From NCBI GenBank assembly GCA_012839115.1, contig DUNX01000045.1:1-48502 (forward strand): a stretch of DNA of 48,502 bases. The letters run 5' to 3'. Below are positions 5,184-32,403 of the stretch, piece after piece. The number at the start of each line of letters is the position of its first letter. Position 1 is the stretch's first letter. A model generated the notes under the pieces. It did not search any database and was not told the DNA's origin. It saw only the letters and a program-made list of their open reading frames with translations. Origin of the DNA: Bacillota bacterium (GTDB lineage: Bacteria; Bacillota; UBA4882; UBA10575). A program made the position numbers and the translations under genes.

Positions 5184-6332
5184 TCAAAAATAATATCGTG
5201 TCTCTACCCAATATCCTTTCTCTGCAGAAGAATTAAATCCTCCCCAGGGGGCGATCCCCAACTGCCATCGCCATTTCTTTTTTTCCCCGCGGAGAACCAG
5301 GAGGGCGCCTTCCCGGACCTGCTCCGCTTTCCAGTGACGGAAGAGTTCGATCCGCACCCGGCACCCGGGAAAAACCCGCTGCCAGCGCAGGCCAGCCCGG
5401 AATCCGGGCTCCTCCCGCTCCTCCACTTCATCATCGGGATCGTACTCCCAGTAGTCCCGGCGGACGGCTTGCCTGTACGCCAGCATCCAACCGGTCGTCA
5501 TCTCCGGGGAGCGGGGATACTCCAAAATCCCGGTAATCTCCCACTCCTCCCGCTGCTTATTCTCCCCCCACTCCCGGAAGAGACGGGAACCCCTGGCTAC
5601 TAGGTGGGTGCGGTCGTTGATCTTCCATTCCCACCGGAAGTTCCAGTAGTTGCCCCATTCGTTCTTCCAGGCGTCCCCCGGATAGACCCCTGTGCTCTCC
5701 CGGTAACGCAGGGAAAAAAAGTGCCCGGCCGACCGGTGTTCACCTCCGGTTTCCAACTGTAGCTTGCGCCAGGAGTTTTTCGTCAGCCGCCGGTATTCTT
5801 TCTGCCTCCCTTTGAGCTCGCCCAACCAGGAAAAACCGGCCCGCCGCAGCCGGATCCTGGCCCCGGCTTCATGATAGGAGTATTCATCCAGGCGGGAAGA
5901 AACATGCGTGCGCTTCCCCGGAATAACCCGCCGCTCTTCTTCCCCCCACAACCGGCCGGACCAATTACGGCGGCTGGTGTTTTCAAGAAAGAACCGGGTC
6001 GCCAGGTAATTGCAGACCGGTTGGGTGGAAAACCGCCCCCACCCCCCGTACCACCAGTTGCCTTTGGCCTTCTTCCGGACCTCCGTCTGCAGGAAAGATA
6101 GGCGATCGTCGGCAGAGGGCTCGTTATAGACCAGCCGCCAGTTCCAGCGTAAATCCGGGATCCGGTACCCGAAGTTGTAGGCCGCCCGGGTGTAAAACCC
6201 CTCTCCCTCCTGGTACTTGTTTTTCCAGGTCAAGTTCCCCGGTTGCCAGGCGGCTTCAGCCGCGCCGGGGTTGATCAAAATAAGACCGCCAACAAGTAGC
6301 AGCCCTTTAAAGAGCAGTGTCCCTTTTTTCAC
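5184..6332 (-). CDS. Secreted protein, predicted outer-membrane-like beta-barrel; no recognised family
   Basis: I chose the GTG at 6332 because GGAGG lies 9 nt upstream and the protein then begins with a compact signal peptide (VKKGTLLFKGLLLVGG..NPGAAEA, cut before AWQPG). A longer frame to 6413 would put about 27 basic residues before it. The mature protein (about 355 residues) is rich in Trp, Tyr and Arg, has alternating polar/hydrophobic strands separated by charged turns, no Cys-rich or enzymatic motif, and ends in GYWVETRYYF, with a C-terminal Phe like the beta-signal of outer-membrane barrels. It sits between the amidase-GerMN gene and the amr genes on the same strand. Barrel topology is inferred; it could also be a surface beta-sandwich. 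Confidence 0.6.
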   Translation of the reverse strand: MKKGTLLFKGLLLVGGLILINPGAAEAAWQPGNLTWKNKYQEGEGFYTRAAYNFGYRIPDLRWNWRLVYNEPSADDRLSFLQTEVRKKAKGNWWYGGWGRFSTQPVCNYLATRFFLENTSRRNWSGRLWGEEERRVIPGKRTHVSSRLDEYSYHEAGARIRLRRAGFSWLGELKGRQKEYRRLTKNSWRKLQLETGGEHRSAGHFFSLRYRESTGVYPGDAWKNEWGNYWNFRWEWKINDRTHLVARGSRLFREWGENKQREEWEITGILEYPRSPEMTTGWMLAYRQAVRRDYWEYDPDDEVEEREEPGFRAGLRWQRVFPGCRVRIELFRHWKAEQVREGALLVLRGEKKKWRWQLGIAPWGGFNSSAEKGYWVETRYYF

Positions 6333-13759: not shown

Positions 13760-13773
13760 AAAAATGCCTCCTC

Positions 13774-13840
13774 TCGTCGCTCGTAACTTGTCGCTTGTCG
13801 CTCGTGGTTCGTTGTTCGTTGCTCGTTGGTTCGTCACTTG
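13774..13840 (+). repeat. Heptanucleotide tandem array, copy A
   Basis: Nine 7-bp units (TCGTCGC, TCGTAAC, TTGTCGC, TTGTCGC, TCGTGGT, TCGTTGT, TCGTTGC, TCGTTGG, TCGTCAC) run with one extra base between the last two. The array lies directly upstream of the rhomboid-like gene and 39 bp left of structured element A. A second array of the same type is at 28317-28410. Confidence 0.85.
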
Positions 13841-13878
13841 TATTTCACAGGCTTGGCCAAGCTGCAAGCACACCCCGT

Positions 13879-14092
13879 GTGGCAGGGCGCCCGGCGCCAC
13901 GTCGGCCTTGGATACCCTGTTCCTAGTCTTTCTTATCTACGCGGAGCCGGGGGAGCGGGTCGAGCCGCAGGACGCGGCGAGACGGCTTCCGGGACAAGGA
14001 GGGCCCGTAAGCCGTTTGCCCGCCACCCGGTGGAGCGGAGATTAGAAAGACTCAACAGGTATCCCGGCTGCAAGCACCGGGCGCCCTGCCAC
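13879..14092. ncRNA. Structured RNA-like element, copy A
   Basis: The ends are a 16-bp perfect inverted repeat: GTGGCAGGGCGCCCGG (13879-13894) and its complement at 14077-14092. Inside, GATACC/GGTATC (13911-13916/14058-14063), TGTT/AACA and AGTCTTTCT/AGAAAGACT (13925-13933/14044-14052) continue the stem. The core holds GCGGG/CCCGC (13955-13959/14019-14023), hairpin GCCGC-AGGAC-GCGGC (13964-13978) and hairpin ACGGCTT-cc-GGG...CCC-gt-AAGCCGT (13982-14015). The core is shared with copy B at about 28.6 kb. It fills the gap between the start of the rhomboid-like gene and the end of the zinc-ribbon gene. No protein signal is seen. I drew it on the plus strand because B has the same sense. Confidence 0.6.
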
Positions 14093-14094
14093 CT

Positions 14095-14817
14095 TTAGAG
14101 GACTACGAGCAATCTCCCACAATTCTCGCACCCCGGCGGCGCCGCCCCTCCCCTCCGCGCCTTCTCCAAAATCCCGGCGGAAACCAGCACATGGCAGTGG
14201 CCGCAGGTCTTATCTTTCACAGGGGCTAGGACCACCCCGTTCATCCGCTCACGCAACCGTTCAAACCTCTCCTTCCACTCTGGAGAAACCAGCCCGGCGA
14301 GGCGTTCACCCTCTTTTTGCAAAGCCGCAACCTCTTTCTGGAGTGCGCTTCGCTTCGCCTCCAGTCCGGCCCGGCGCTTTGCCAGTTCCTCTTTGAGACC
14401 GGCCTCCTCTTTTCCCAGGCCGGCCAGTTTTTTCTCCATCTCCTCCACGTCGTACATGGCCTGGAGAATTCCTTCTTCAACCCGCTCTTCCGCCTGCCGG
14501 TATTCGGCAATTTTCTTTTCCAGTTGGGTTAATTCTTTAGGAGAGGTAATTTTTCCTCCATAAAGGTCTTTTTCCGATTCCTCCCGGTGGTAACGGAGCT
14601 TGGTACGTTCTTCTTCCCACCGTTTCATCTCTTTGCGCCTATTAGAAATGGCCTCTTGACAGGAGGCCATCTTACCAGCAACCAACGTTAGTTTATTTGC
14701 CAACGGGATCAGGGAATGGTCGGCAAGAAGTTCTTCCAGTTCCTTTTCGAGTTTCGACTGGCGTCTGCGAACCTCTTGGTACTGATATAACCACTTCAAT
14801 TCCTGGTCTTTACTCAT
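14095..14817 (-). CDS. Coiled-coil protein with C-terminal C4 zinc ribbon (DUF164/CdsZ-like)
   Basis: The first 190 or so of 240 residues are a long charged coiled coil (many KEE, RRK and EEL repeats, with a conserved-looking YGGKITSPKELTQLEKKI segment near residue 85). The final part carries KDKTCGHCHVLVSAG and PGCENCGRLLV, a CxxC...CxxC zinc ribbon. This layout is that of the widespread DUF164 (zf-RING_7) family, often encoded near nif3 as here. The stop lies 3 bp from the right arm of structured element A. The family's exact function is unclear. Confidence 0.9.
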   Translation of the reverse strand: MSKDQELKWLYQYQEVRRRQSKLEKELEELLADHSLIPLANKLTLVAGKMASCQEAISNRRKEMKRWEEERTKLRYHREESEKDLYGGKITSPKELTQLEKKIAEYRQAEERVEEGILQAMYDVEEMEKKLAGLGKEEAGLKEELAKRRAGLEAKRSALQKEVAALQKEGERLAGLVSPEWKERFERLRERMNGVVLAPVKDKTCGHCHVLVSAGILEKARRGGAAPPGCENCGRLLVVL

Positions 14818-15056: not shown

Positions 15057-16166
15057 TTAATCCAGGCGGTAGGGAGCAATCTGCTTCCGGCTGGTAAAAA
15101 CCTGCAACCGGTGATCACCGGCAAACATGGCATCCAGGTACTCTTTTATCTGGACCAAACCCCGGGAATCCATAACATGGTGCCCGGGATCAACAATGGC
15201 CAACCCTGCCTGCTGCGCGGCAAAAAAATGGTGGTGGCTAAGATCGGAAGTGATAAAAACATCGGCGCCCATCTCTTTAACCTGTGGCAAGAATCTCCCG
15301 CCGCCACCGGCAACAACCGCGACTCTTTTTACCTTGTCAATTACGGCTCCCCCGCATCTGAGCGCCGGAAGGGCAAAAATCTCTTTGCTTCTGGCTAAAA
15401 AATCATCCCACGCGAGTTCGGAGGGAAGGTTTCCGATCCGTCCCCAACCGGTATTCCCGGTTGCCTGGGCTAAGGGATAAAGGTCATAAGCAACCTCTTC
15501 GTACGGGTGAACGGCGAGCAAGGCCCGGAGGACTTCCTGTTCCAGCCTGGCCGGGAAAATTGTCTCCAAGCGTACCTCAGGGACCCGTTCCAACTTACCC
15601 GTTTCTCCCAGGAACGGGTTGGTACCCTCCCGGGGCAGAAAAGTGCCTGTTCCTTCCGTTTGAAAAGTACAATGACTGTAATTGCCGATCCAACCGGCCC
15701 CGGCCCGGGCCAACCCTTCCATAATCACATCTTCATAGCCTTTAGGTAAAAAAACCACTAATTTTAGGTGCTTTTCACCGCCGGCCTCTACCGGCTGGGG
15801 TTTGACCAGATGCAACAGACAGGCCAAGTAATGGTTAAGTCCCCGGGGCGCCCGTTCATAATTGGTGTGTAACGTATAAAGGGAAATCTCTTTTTTTACC
15901 AGTTTCCCCCAAAGCCTGCCGGGGGGAGAATCCAAGCGAAGATCCGTCAATATCCCCCCAAAGGGCGGGTGGTGGGTTATAATCAGTCCGGCTTTTACCT
16001 CTTCCGCTTCGGCAATCACTTCTTCCGTAAGGTCCAAGGCCAGTAAAACAGTGGAAATTTCCTGATCGGCCCGGCCCGCAATGAGCCCTACCCTGTCCCC
16101 GGCCTCCGCCAGGGCAAGGGGGGCCAATTCTTCCAATACCGAAGCAACCTCACTAACCAGCGGCAT
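15057..16166 (-). CDS. Nif3-like dinuclear metal-centre protein (YqfO type, with CutA/PII-like insert)
   Basis: The length, 369 residues, matches the long YqfO form. The N-terminal half has GDRVGLIAG, LLALDLTEEVI and LIITHHPPFGG (metal His pair). The middle (about 130-230) is the inserted PII/CutA-like domain (KLVVFLPKGYEDVIMEGLARAGAG, VHPYEEVAYDLYPL). The C-terminal half has VAVVAGGGGRFL, ADVFITSDLSHHHFF and IVDPGHHVMD. It was proposed to act in GTP cyclohydrolase or metal-related roles, but the true activity is unsettled. In Bacillus the gene follows sigA and trmK; here the sigA link is broken by two tRNAs and no trmK is seen. Confidence 0.95.
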   Translation of the reverse strand: MPLVSEVASVLEELAPLALAEAGDRVGLIAGRADQEISTVLLALDLTEEVIAEAEEVKAGLIITHHPPFGGILTDLRLDSPPGRLWGKLVKKEISLYTLHTNYERAPRGLNHYLACLLHLVKPQPVEAGGEKHLKLVVFLPKGYEDVIMEGLARAGAGWIGNYSHCTFQTEGTGTFLPREGTNPFLGETGKLERVPEVRLETIFPARLEQEVLRALLAVHPYEEVAYDLYPLAQATGNTGWGRIGNLPSELAWDDFLARSKEIFALPALRCGGAVIDKVKRVAVVAGGGGRFLPQVKEMGADVFITSDLSHHHFFAAQQAGLAIVDPGHHVMDSRGLVQIKEYLDAMFAGDHRLQVFTSRKQIAPYRLD

Positions 16167-27245: not shown

Positions 27246-28322
27246 ATGAAAGTTCTTCTTCTCTGCGGCGGCGAAGGAACCCGCCTTCGCCCTTTTACCC
27301 ACAGTATTCCAAAGCAACTGCTTCCGGTGGTCAATAAACCCATCTTATATCATATACTAGAATGGGTGGCAACCCGTACCTCCCTCCGGGAAATGGTACT
27401 GGTGACCGGTGAAAACCAAAGGATTTTCCAGCAAACAGTCGGCGACGGAAGCAACTGGGGCCTGACAATATCCTACGTTTACCAACCCCGCCCCCTCGGC
27501 CTGGCCCATGCCGTGCTGACCGCCGAAGCAGCCCTGGGCAAAGACCCATTCTTGATGTATCTCGGTGATAATCTTCTGGAAGAATCTCTCCAAGAATACC
27601 TCGCTGTTTTCGAAAAAAAGCGCCTGGACTGTTTACTTTTCCTCCGCAAAGTACCGGACCCTGAAAACTACGGCATAGCGGAGATTGAAGACGACCGTGT
27701 CCTTCGTGTAATGGAAAAGCCGGAAAAGCCGCCAAGTAATTTAGCCCTTTCCGGCCTTTATCTCTTTTCCCCCGCTATTTTCCAGTCGATAAGGAATATT
27801 TCCCCTTCCGCCAGGGGAGAACTGGAAATAACCGATGCCATTCAAAACCTCCTCGACCGGAAAAAAAGGGTCGAATACCGGCTCTTAACCGGCTGGTGGC
27901 TGGATACCGGCAGCCCAAATGCTCTTTTGGAAGCCAACCGCCGCCTGCTGCAAAAGGTCACCCCCGTCTCCCTGGGCCGGATTATTAACTCCCAGGTTGG
28001 CGGTGGCCTGCACCTGGAGAAAGAAAGCCTCATCGAAAACTCCAAGATTAATGGGCCGGTCTATATCGGAACCGGTTGCCTAATCAAAGATTCCACCATC
28101 GGTCCATGGGTAACAGTGGGCGACGGCGGAACCGTCACCGGCAGCACCCTGAAAAACTCCATCCTCTTTTCCGGAGTACGGATGGAAAATTACGCCCTGC
28201 ACCAAAGTATCATCGGCCACCGGGCCCTGCTCGCCGGCAAACACAGATCCGATCAGACCGCCGCACTGCCCCCGCAACCCTTCTCCCGCCTACTGTTGGG
28301 GGATGATGGGGTCGTCTCGTAG
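27246..28322 (+). CDS. rfbA: Glucose-1-phosphate thymidylyltransferase, long form
   Basis: A nucleotidyltransferase of 358 residues starting MKVLLLCGGEGTRLRPFTHSIPKQLLPVVNKP, with YQPRPLGLAHAVL, FLMYLGDNLL (Mg/NTP Asp), ENYGIAEIED and EITDAIQ. After GWWLDTGSPNALLEANR comes a C-terminal left-handed beta-helix (IENSKINGPVYIGTGC, DSTIGPWVTVGDGG), as in the long RfbA/archaeal-type enzymes that make dTDP- or UDP-sugars. It should supply activated glucose for rhamnose or related sugars to the downstream glycosyltransferases, though rfbB, C and D are not in the window. The stop codon forms the start of a heptamer repeat array. RBS is weak (AGAGGT). Confidence 0.92.
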   Translation: MKVLLLCGGEGTRLRPFTHSIPKQLLPVVNKPILYHILEWVATRTSLREMVLVTGENQRIFQQTVGDGSNWGLTISYVYQPRPLGLAHAVLTAEAALGKDPFLMYLGDNLLEESLQEYLAVFEKKRLDCLLFLRKVPDPENYGIAEIEDDRVLRVMEKPEKPPSNLALSGLYLFSPAIFQSIRNISPSARGELEITDAIQNLLDRKKRVEYRLLTGWWLDTGSPNALLEANRRLLQKVTPVSLGRIINSQVGGGLHLEKESLIENSKINGPVYIGTGCLIKDSTIGPWVTVGDGGTVTGSTLKNSILFSGVRMENYALHQSIIGHRALLAGKHRSDQTAALPPQPFSRLLLGDDGVVS

Positions 28323-28410
28323 CTCGTAGCTCGTCGCTCGGCGCTCGGACTCGGGACTCGGCGCTCGGCGCTGGTTGCTCGTGGCTCAGACTCGGCGCTC
28401 GGCGCTAGTG
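28317..28410 (+). repeat. Heptanucleotide tandem array, copy B
   Basis: Thirteen or so 7-bp (occasionally 6-bp) units of the form TCG(T/G)NGC run from the rfbA stop: TCGTAGC, TCGTAGC, TCGTCGC, TCGGCGC, TCGGAC, TCGGGAC, TCGGCGC, TCGGCGC, TGGTTGC, TCGTGGC, TCAGAC, TCGGCGC, TCGGCGC. Same unit family as the array at 13774-13840. It is followed 80 bp later by structured element B. Confidence 0.85.
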
Positions 28411-28453
28411 TTTGAGTCTGCCGCCGGAATTAAAGACCTGAACAAGACCTGGC

Positions 28454-28822
28454 CCGGCGCCCGGCCCCAATGCGCCGGGGGGGCGCCCTCGCCGGATTGC
28501 CGGCAGGCCGGCCCACAGTTCCAACTAGAATTCTATCGTCTGGCGGGGGCTCCGGAAAACCTAAGTCTGGGAAGACGGCCTTAGGCATGCTTGGCGAGGG
28601 GGAAAGGAAGACCGGGGCAAGCCGCAGGAGGTGGCGCGGTGGCTTCCGGGACATGAAGGTCCCGTAAGCCACGTACCCGGTTTTACTTCCCACCGAGCCT
28701 TAGCAGCCCGGCCGGATTCCTTGGTTCTGGTTTCCCGGAGTCCCCGCCAGCTTCGAGCACCGCCCGGACCGAGCAACGACGTCATGCGCCGCCGCTCACG
28801 CCGCGTCTGCCGGCAATCCGGC
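28454..28822. ncRNA. Structured RNA-like element, copy B
   Basis: GCCGGATTGCCGGCAG (28491-28506) is a perfect 16-bp inverted match to 28807-28822, and GGCGGGGGCTCCGG (28542-28555) pairs with 28735-28748 (one G-U). Inside are a hairpin CCTAA-GTCT-GGGA-AGAC..CTTAGG with a GNRA-type loop (28560-28585), stem AAGACCGGG/CCCGGTTTT (28608-28616/28676-28684), hairpin GCCGC-AGGAG-GTGGC (28621-28635) and hairpin GTGGCTT-cc-GGGAC..GTCCC-gt-AAGCCAC (28639-28672). The last three match copy A at about 13.96-14.02 kb with compensatory changes. A GC-rich hairpin (28454-28487) precedes the arms. The region 28323-28902 holds no convincing protein gene. Confidence 0.62.
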
Positions 28823-28902
28823 AAAATGCTCTCAGTACCCGTCCCCCCATACTCGTCGTTACGCAGAACAGGGTGAACCAGAGGAAGGTGAAACAAACCG
28901 GC

Positions 28903-31421: not shown

Positions 31422-32403
31422 TCGTTGTCTCCCAATTCTTCTCCGGGAAGCGGCGGACTTTCAGGAAAATCTCCCCCAAACGGTGCCTGTAGGTGTGCTG
31501 CCGGTAGGCCCTTTGTTGCGCCGCTTCGCCAATCATCGTCCTCTTCACCGGTTTGGCGAGATATTCCTGGATCTTTTCCGCCAGATCGTCCGGGTCGGTA
31601 AAACCGGCCATCTCCACACCGTCGGTGAAACAATCCCAGAGCCCGGCACGGGTCCGGTCCACCAGTTGAAAAGCGGCGCAACCGGCCAGGGCAAAAGTCC
31701 GGTCATTGGGGCTCTCCGCCCCCACGCCCCGGCTGTTTCCGGAAGGCGGATCCACCGGGTCCCTGTGGATATTCAGGTTGATGCGGGCGCCGTTGTAATA
31801 CTTCCGGATCTCCCAAAAATCCCCGGTCACCGGACGTACTTTACCCCTTAAGTCGGGGTGGAGCCGGCCCCAGCTTTCCCAGTCACCGATGAGGACGACC
31901 TTCATTTTTTTTAAGAGCGGCGCCAGGTAATTAATGATCCGCAAGCGGTTGGGGAAACCCATCCCCACAAACAACAGATCGCTCCAGTAAGCGGGAGGCG
32001 CTGTGACCCGCTGGTGGACACGGGGGTTGCAGCACCAGGGGAGATAATAAACCCGGGGATGGTCATACTCCCGCACCGCCCTCTGTTCAGTGGTGAAAAC
32101 ATACTGGTAAGCCTCGACCATTTTCCCGCGGTGGTAATCGATTTCATAGGGGTCCTCCACCAACCAAAGGACAGTGGAGACACCGCGTTCCCCGGCGTAA
32201 CGCACCAACTCCGGCTTGGTATACGTACCGTGAACTACCAGCAGAAGATCGGGGTTAAACTCCCGGATCAGACGCTTGGAAAGGTTCTGGGGCGAGGTTT
32301 GCCGGACCAGGCAGTGAAAATCCTGGCGTAAACAGGTGTGGATATCATAGGCATAGCGGGCCGGAAACCCCGGTATCCCCGAGTTGACAAAGAGCACTTT
32401 CAT
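31324..32403 (-). CDS. CgeB-family glycosyltransferase-like protein, copy 1
   Basis: The protein, 359 residues, has the CgeB (DUF3880 + GT-B-like) layout: VLFVNSGIPGFPARYAYDIH at the start, LLLVVHGT, TVLWLVEDPYEIDYH, YVFTTEQRAV, YYLPWCCNP, LLFVGMGFPNR, YNGARINLNIHRDP, SPNDRTFALAGCAAFQLVD and TYRHRLGEIF. CgeB is linked to spore crust glycosylation in Bacillus. The ATG at 32403 follows AGGAG by 7 nt; a GTG at 32418 is less likely. Compared with copy 2 it carries a C-terminal extension of about 35 residues, most of it encoded within the antisense of the GT-D gene. Confidence 0.85.
   Translation of the reverse strand: MKVLFVNSGIPGFPARYAYDIHTCLRQDFHCLVRQTSPQNLSKRLIREFNPDLLLVVHGTYTKPELVRYAGERGVSTVLWLVEDPYEIDYHRGKMVEAYQYVFTTEQRAVREYDHPRVYYLPWCCNPRVHQRVTAPPAYWSDLLFVGMGFPNRLRIINYLAPLLKKMKVVLIGDWESWGRLHPDLRGKVRPVTGDFWEIRKYYNGARINLNIHRDPVDPPSGNSRGVGAESPNDRTFALAGCAAFQLVDRTRAGLWDCFTDGVEMAGFTDPDDLAEKIQEYLAKPVKRTMIGEAAQQRAYRQHTYRHRLGEIFLKVRRFPEKNWETTIRTSPPQVFVFPASAVSPGPGLLYKTRGVRDR

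Follow-up and report, generated by a model that had tools for sequence, protein, structure and literature searches.

A dispersed hairpin repeat with a TwoAYGGAY-like RNA core in the Bacillota

The closest described system to the element reported here is TwoAYGGAY (Rfam RF01731), introduced in 2010 as a probable RNA of the human gut, gamma-Proteobacteria, and Clostridiales (PMC2864571). Citing its tandem GAs, Gardner and Eldai (2014) proposed that TwoAYGGAY sequesters CsrA (PMC4333381). The CsrA SELEX consensus is RUACARGGAUGU, mostly displayed in six-nucleotide loops (PMC7652899). Rfam groups RF01731 in clan CL00106 together with E. coli CsrB, and the sponge RNAs CsrB, CsrC, and RsmXYZ likewise present GGA-loop hairpins. 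The complement of the modeled strand of Bacillaceae-1 RNA (RF01690) contains two hairpins with GGA loops (PMC4333381).

Here, we analyze two elements, A and B, in a stretch of 48,502 nucleotides (the window) from a Bacillota genome. Like TwoAYGGAY, they belong to a repeat family built as a long outer rod followed by a pair of adjacent hairpins whose loops read A(N)GGA(N), and Clostridia are among the hosts. Element A has two hairpins of the ANGGAY type, with loops AGGAC and AAGGAG, so the last base is not always a pyrimidine; B keeps AGGAG, and its second loop, AUGAAG, lacks GGA. Unlike TwoAYGGAY, A and B lie below detection by RF01731, the rod sequence of the repeat family differs, and the copies are numerous and reside on mobile repeats, which is unreported in the papers cited here. 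Compared with CsrB, CsrC, and RsmXYZ, each copy has just two loops on its long rod, the copies are many and dispersed, and the host genus (g1) has no CsrA. The features are as follows.

13768..13843: degenerate array of heptamers flanking A and independent of it
13879..14092, plus strand: element A, with inverted repeats GTGGCAGGGCGCCCGG (13879-13894) and CCGGGCGCCCTGCCAC (14077-14092), from sequence and fold
13945..14028, plus strand: core A, from fold, alignment, and pair counts
13950-13959 with 14019-14028: core A, stem P1
13964-13978: core A, hairpin P2, loop AGGAC, tandem GA at its base
13982-14015: core A, hairpin P3, loop AAGGAG
28311..28411: degenerate array of CTCGTNG heptamers flanking B and independent of it
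28454..28490, plus strand: outer GC-rich hairpin module to the left of B's inverted repeat, from the fold, common to other B-type copies
28491..28822, plus strand: element B, bounded by 16-bp terminal inverted repeats (28491-28506 and 28807-28822)
28602..28685, plus strand: core B, from alignment, pair counts, and fold
28607-28616 with 28676-28685: core B, stem P1
28621-28635: core B, hairpin P2, loop AGGAG
28639-28672: core B, hairpin P3, loop AUGAAG, GGA lost

The core, its covariation, and its kinship with TwoAYGGAY

A and B share an 84-nucleotide core consisting of a stem followed by two hairpins. Specifically, B 28602-28685 aligns without gaps to A 13945-14028, and a genome-wide BLAST search with the B core retrieves A (E=8.8e-11) along with five further copies, full or partial. 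This genome search, which the preliminary description had suggested, brings the core copies to seven: three B-type, three C-type (a tandem pair on contig C121 and one copy on contig C52, all with ends related to those of element A), and A. The compensatory base changes reported at the outset are confirmed at two pairs of P3: alignment columns 38/71 change from G-C to A-U and columns 39/70 from U-A to C-G. Likewise, the arms beyond the core differ in sequence between A and B while pairing is kept within each copy. Against dinucleotide shuffles, the fold z-score is -8.05 for the B region (28440-28830) and -6.67 for the A region (13845-14105).

A first covariance model of the core, R1, matches 5 to 10 copies per genome in all three genomes of g1 (G000, G001, and G002) and also finds divergent copies in other genera of the host family, f1. 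A second model, R2, detects the core in 13 of 16 f1 genomes, with as many as 12 copies per genome. Elsewhere in the class, R2 gives just two marginal matches (E 0.08-0.1), both in one genome. In a phylum sample of 249 genomes from 187 genera, R2 is positive (E<=0.001) in 28 genomes from 22 genera, many of these genomes holding 7 to 17 copies. These covariance searches rule out the genus-restricted novelty that exact-pattern scans had suggested.

Pairing holds in 94.6% of the pair cells among 69 aligned f1 copies, and 22 of the 28 pairs change on both sides. Double-change cells number 288; shuffling yields 82, and sliding the partners yields no more than 38. When copies are aligned across the phylum, both partners vary at 26 of 28 pairs, and double-change cells total 311, compared with 87 for shuffles. 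In the external stem of about 220 nucleotides that forms the rod beyond the core, double changes appear at 27 of 70 predicted pairs across seven sequences. Thus, the early proposal that structure is conserved over sequence is strongly supported by covariation, both in f1 and phylum-wide.

While the stems vary, both loops stay C-A(N)GGA(N)-G in nearly all phylum-wide aligned copies, a form shared with the CsrA SELEX consensus and the Rsm hexaloop (PMC7652899). GGA is present in P2 of 65 and P3 of 60 of the 69 f1 copies, and in 34 of 35 phylum-wide copies for each loop. Two further TwoAYGGAY traits, the external stem and tandem GA, are also present. Tandem GA (CGAG/CGAG) is confined to the plus strand and, in A and many relatives, sits where P2 begins to pair; it is missing in B and swapped for CGCG/CGCG in some copies. 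On the plus strand, G-U pairs outnumber A-C mismatches, 64 to 37 (p 0.009, over copies that are non-independent and under a covariance model that itself favors G-U). The G-U excess and the plus-strand tandem GA lead us to take the plus strand as the favored structured strand. The same asymmetries, and the persistence in many families of C-G-closed A(N)GGA(N) loops on stems that vary throughout, argue against a reading in which the repeat is a DNA-level foldback (MITE or REP-like) whose hairpins serve transposition or arise from palindrome turnover and have no RNA function.

Neither A nor B matches any Rfam family, and neither reaches the curated gathering threshold of RF01731. Against B, RF01731 returns nothing even at E<=10; at seven other f1 loci it returns nothing at E<=1, and no relevant Rfam match exists there. 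The connection is provided by a locus from another family, L255, which was found with R2 and scores 48.3 bits against RF01731, above the threshold of 43. The RF01731 alignment at L255 spans the same two hairpins as the core. Below threshold, RF01731 gives four matches in three R2 loci (L271 twice, L272, and L257). Homology through these bridging loci, which both models match, makes it well supported that the core is a divergent relative of TwoAYGGAY. Because A and B fall short of RF01731, the family link rests on the bridging loci, and because they failed the formal score test, A and B are filed as a TwoAYGGAY variant. The original suggestion of an undescribed RNA therefore survives in that A and B have no Rfam match, and lapses in that homologues recovered by R2 in other families match the known family TwoAYGGAY, one of them above threshold.

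The preliminary description also raised a stand-alone relative of OMEGA/HEARO-type guide RNAs. Such guide RNAs and the core are alike in being multi-copy structured RNAs, and the location near gene ends would suit such a role. However, HEARO is unmatched in the Rfam searches, the architecture is that of TwoAYGGAY, and no IscB or TnpB nuclease gene lies beside any copy examined. Rather, sampled copies occupy intergenic gaps next to unrelated housekeeping genes, including uvrC, valS, glnS, purA, dnaK, htrA, carB, purH, pgm, and others. We regard the guide-RNA interpretation as scarcely credible.

Separately, the minus strand of the core at L255 and L271 carries sub-threshold matches to Bacillaceae-1, in agreement with the published doubt regarding the strand of that RNA. 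The reverse complement of Bacillaceae-1 shares the two GGA-loop hairpins, and the loci overlap on the minus strand. Bacillaceae-1 differs in being 67 nucleotides long and rodless, and its matches here are all sub-threshold.

Mobility, decay, and genomic context

Bacterial MITEs and palindromic repeats, such as ERIC, are short, intergenic, multi-copy, imperfect palindromes. The elements described here differ in carrying a core with protein-binding-type loops conserved across the phylum. A concrete case of mobility comes from the distant family f20 (genomes G159 and G043). Specifically, f20 core copies sit in elements of 268-381 bp with terminal inverted repeats, the start resembling GACTCCACTGC and the end resembling GCAGTAGAATC. 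Of 22 distinct copies with both ends, 19 are flanked by direct repeats of 5-10 bp, mostly 6-8 bp. We count 249 occurrences of the terminal repeat in G159 and 114 in G043, against 1 control match each, and the units that it bounds, 110-380 bp in length with 6-bp duplications, exist both with and without the core. The core-bearing elements of f20 are MITEs. Many TIR-bounded elements there lack the core, so the core is unneeded for their transposition. Among side observations in G159 and G043 (L295-L324), terminal repeat CTTTTTGCAGTNGAATC is present at more than 100 places per genome; its sequence resembles IS6-family ends. A cobalamin riboswitch lies directly behind one MITE copy (L263:1683-1866).

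Transposition is directly seen only in this relative; for f1, we infer it from dispersal. The g1 copies are numerous and show inverted repeats but not target duplications. At f1 and g1 copies, we saw neither f20-type target duplications nor the f20 terminal repeat, and the f1 copy ends inspected had no clean target duplication. Mobility of the REP/RAYT type was rejected, as a Y1 transposase is present in just 2 of 16 f1 genomes. One further rearrangement was found at B itself: segment 28491-28822 is inverted in place in the sister species G001 (L221), with flanks unchanged. Thus, the segment between the 16-bp inverted repeats behaves as if able to flip.

Searches with either end alone reveal many f1 copies that are 5'-truncated, 3'-truncated, or internally deleted. 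A SINE-like retroelement, copied by reverse transcription, would account for the many 5'-truncated copies that retain an intact 3' end and lie behind stop codons or terminators. Copies truncated at the 3' end are, however, about as common (27 against 35), internal deletions also occur, and the ends and duplications in f20 are of the DNA transposon type. We consider a SINE-like origin very improbable, and retrotransposition was discarded on the basis of truncations on both sides.

Among neighboring genes that point in the same direction, the structured strand lies opposite in 35 of 42 pairs (35 against 7). At convergent or divergent gene pairs, the element mostly opposes the local GC skew as well. 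Because the structured strand opposes the neighboring genes at most loci, the element would need its own promoter. No promoter or terminator match was found near B. A role as an intrinsic terminator was rejected: no consistent T-run follows the inspected copies, and B has no terminator match. Orientation set by replication was likewise set aside, with five same-direction cases that misfit a simple rule, although the convergent and divergent cases mostly agree with it.

The orientation bias against genes and against local GC skew, the multi-copy and truncated state of the repeat, the terminal repeats and target duplications in f20, and the in-place inversion of B are each what a DNA-level foldback repeat would show. 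The many core-free TIR-bounded elements of f20, together with the loop conservation, one-strand tandem GA, and G-U excess presented above, stand against it. On balance, we judge a foldback repeat devoid of RNA function to be unlikely. Searching the literature for compensatory changes in bcr repeats yielded no result.

CsrA and the proposed function

CsrA is absent from all three g1 genomes, which are 94-97% complete, and is present in 12 of the 13 other f1 genomes. CsrA thus appears to have been lost in g1 though conserved across f1. The GGA-type loops and membership of clan CL00106 would befit a functional CsrA-sequestering small RNA in the host genome. We nonetheless hold such an RNA to be highly improbable: the genus has no CsrA gene, and the P3 loop of B has become AUGAAG. 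A CsrA sponge acting in this genome is ruled out by the missing gene, and CsrA absence coupled with the lost GGA loop in B means that CsrA titration cannot be the job of the element in g1. Elsewhere, CsrA titration may be its function. Across g1, 34 of 40 loops keep GGA.

The explanation that we consider probable is that A and B belong to a non-coding repeat that transposition has dispersed, with a core that is a TwoAYGGAY-related structured RNA: a long rod ending in two C-G-closed A(N)GGA(N) hairpin loops. In a transcribed copy, the two loops would form a paired binding site for the CsrA dimer, and, wherever the host possesses CsrA, each copy would serve as a small decoy for it. With CsrA gone from g1, the likeliest status of A and B is that of relics or hitch-hiking repeats devoid of a CsrA-decoy function, B having already shed one loop.

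Across the phylum sample, CsrA and the element weakly co-occur. CsrA is present in 24 of 28 element-bearing genomes (one of the 24, G029, by a weak match at E 8e-5) and in 155 of 221 others (one-sided p=0.06). At the genus level, it is present in 20 of 22 element-bearing genera (p=0.02, uncorrected for phylogeny). We tentatively entertain a broader but less likely possibility: transposon-borne CsrA decoys operate phylum-wide, transposition shifts the decoy dose, and persistence of the repeat in g1 reflects a second partner that binds the loops. Within that broader reading, a second partner is suggested because mostly intact loops persist in a genus lacking CsrA. If so, transposition of a two-loop CsrA-type RNA cargo borne on MITEs would alter the decoy dose of a global regulator.

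TwoAYGGAY, until now a candidate CsrA-sequestering RNA of unclear behavior, is extended to lineages that Rfam misses. Its relatives form a multi-copy dispersed repeat and, in f20, are MITE cargo. Such loci are best annotated as mobile repeats rather than as single-copy small RNA genes. Furthermore, a genus with the RNA and without CsrA, alongside sister genera with both, provides natural tests of the CsrA idea.

Neighboring repeats

The preliminary description noted that both A and B are preceded by a heptamer array and treated the array as a mark of the element. This association does not hold. About ten CTCGTNG arrays exist in the window (e.g., 5409-5462, 15564-15633, and 31486-31547), and heptamer matches occur in 16 of 16 f1 genomes, dozens in some, including the core-free genome G005. 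We therefore reject the array as a partner: such arrays are widespread and occur independently of the element. Finally, at L061, L062, L110, L131, L175, L191, L194, and L196, in related genomes, another hairpin repeat, GTCGACTCACCCGGCT...AGCCGGCGTGAGCGACTAC, borders parts of the element or takes their place, and the end of this second repeat is similar to the heptamer unit GAGCGAC.
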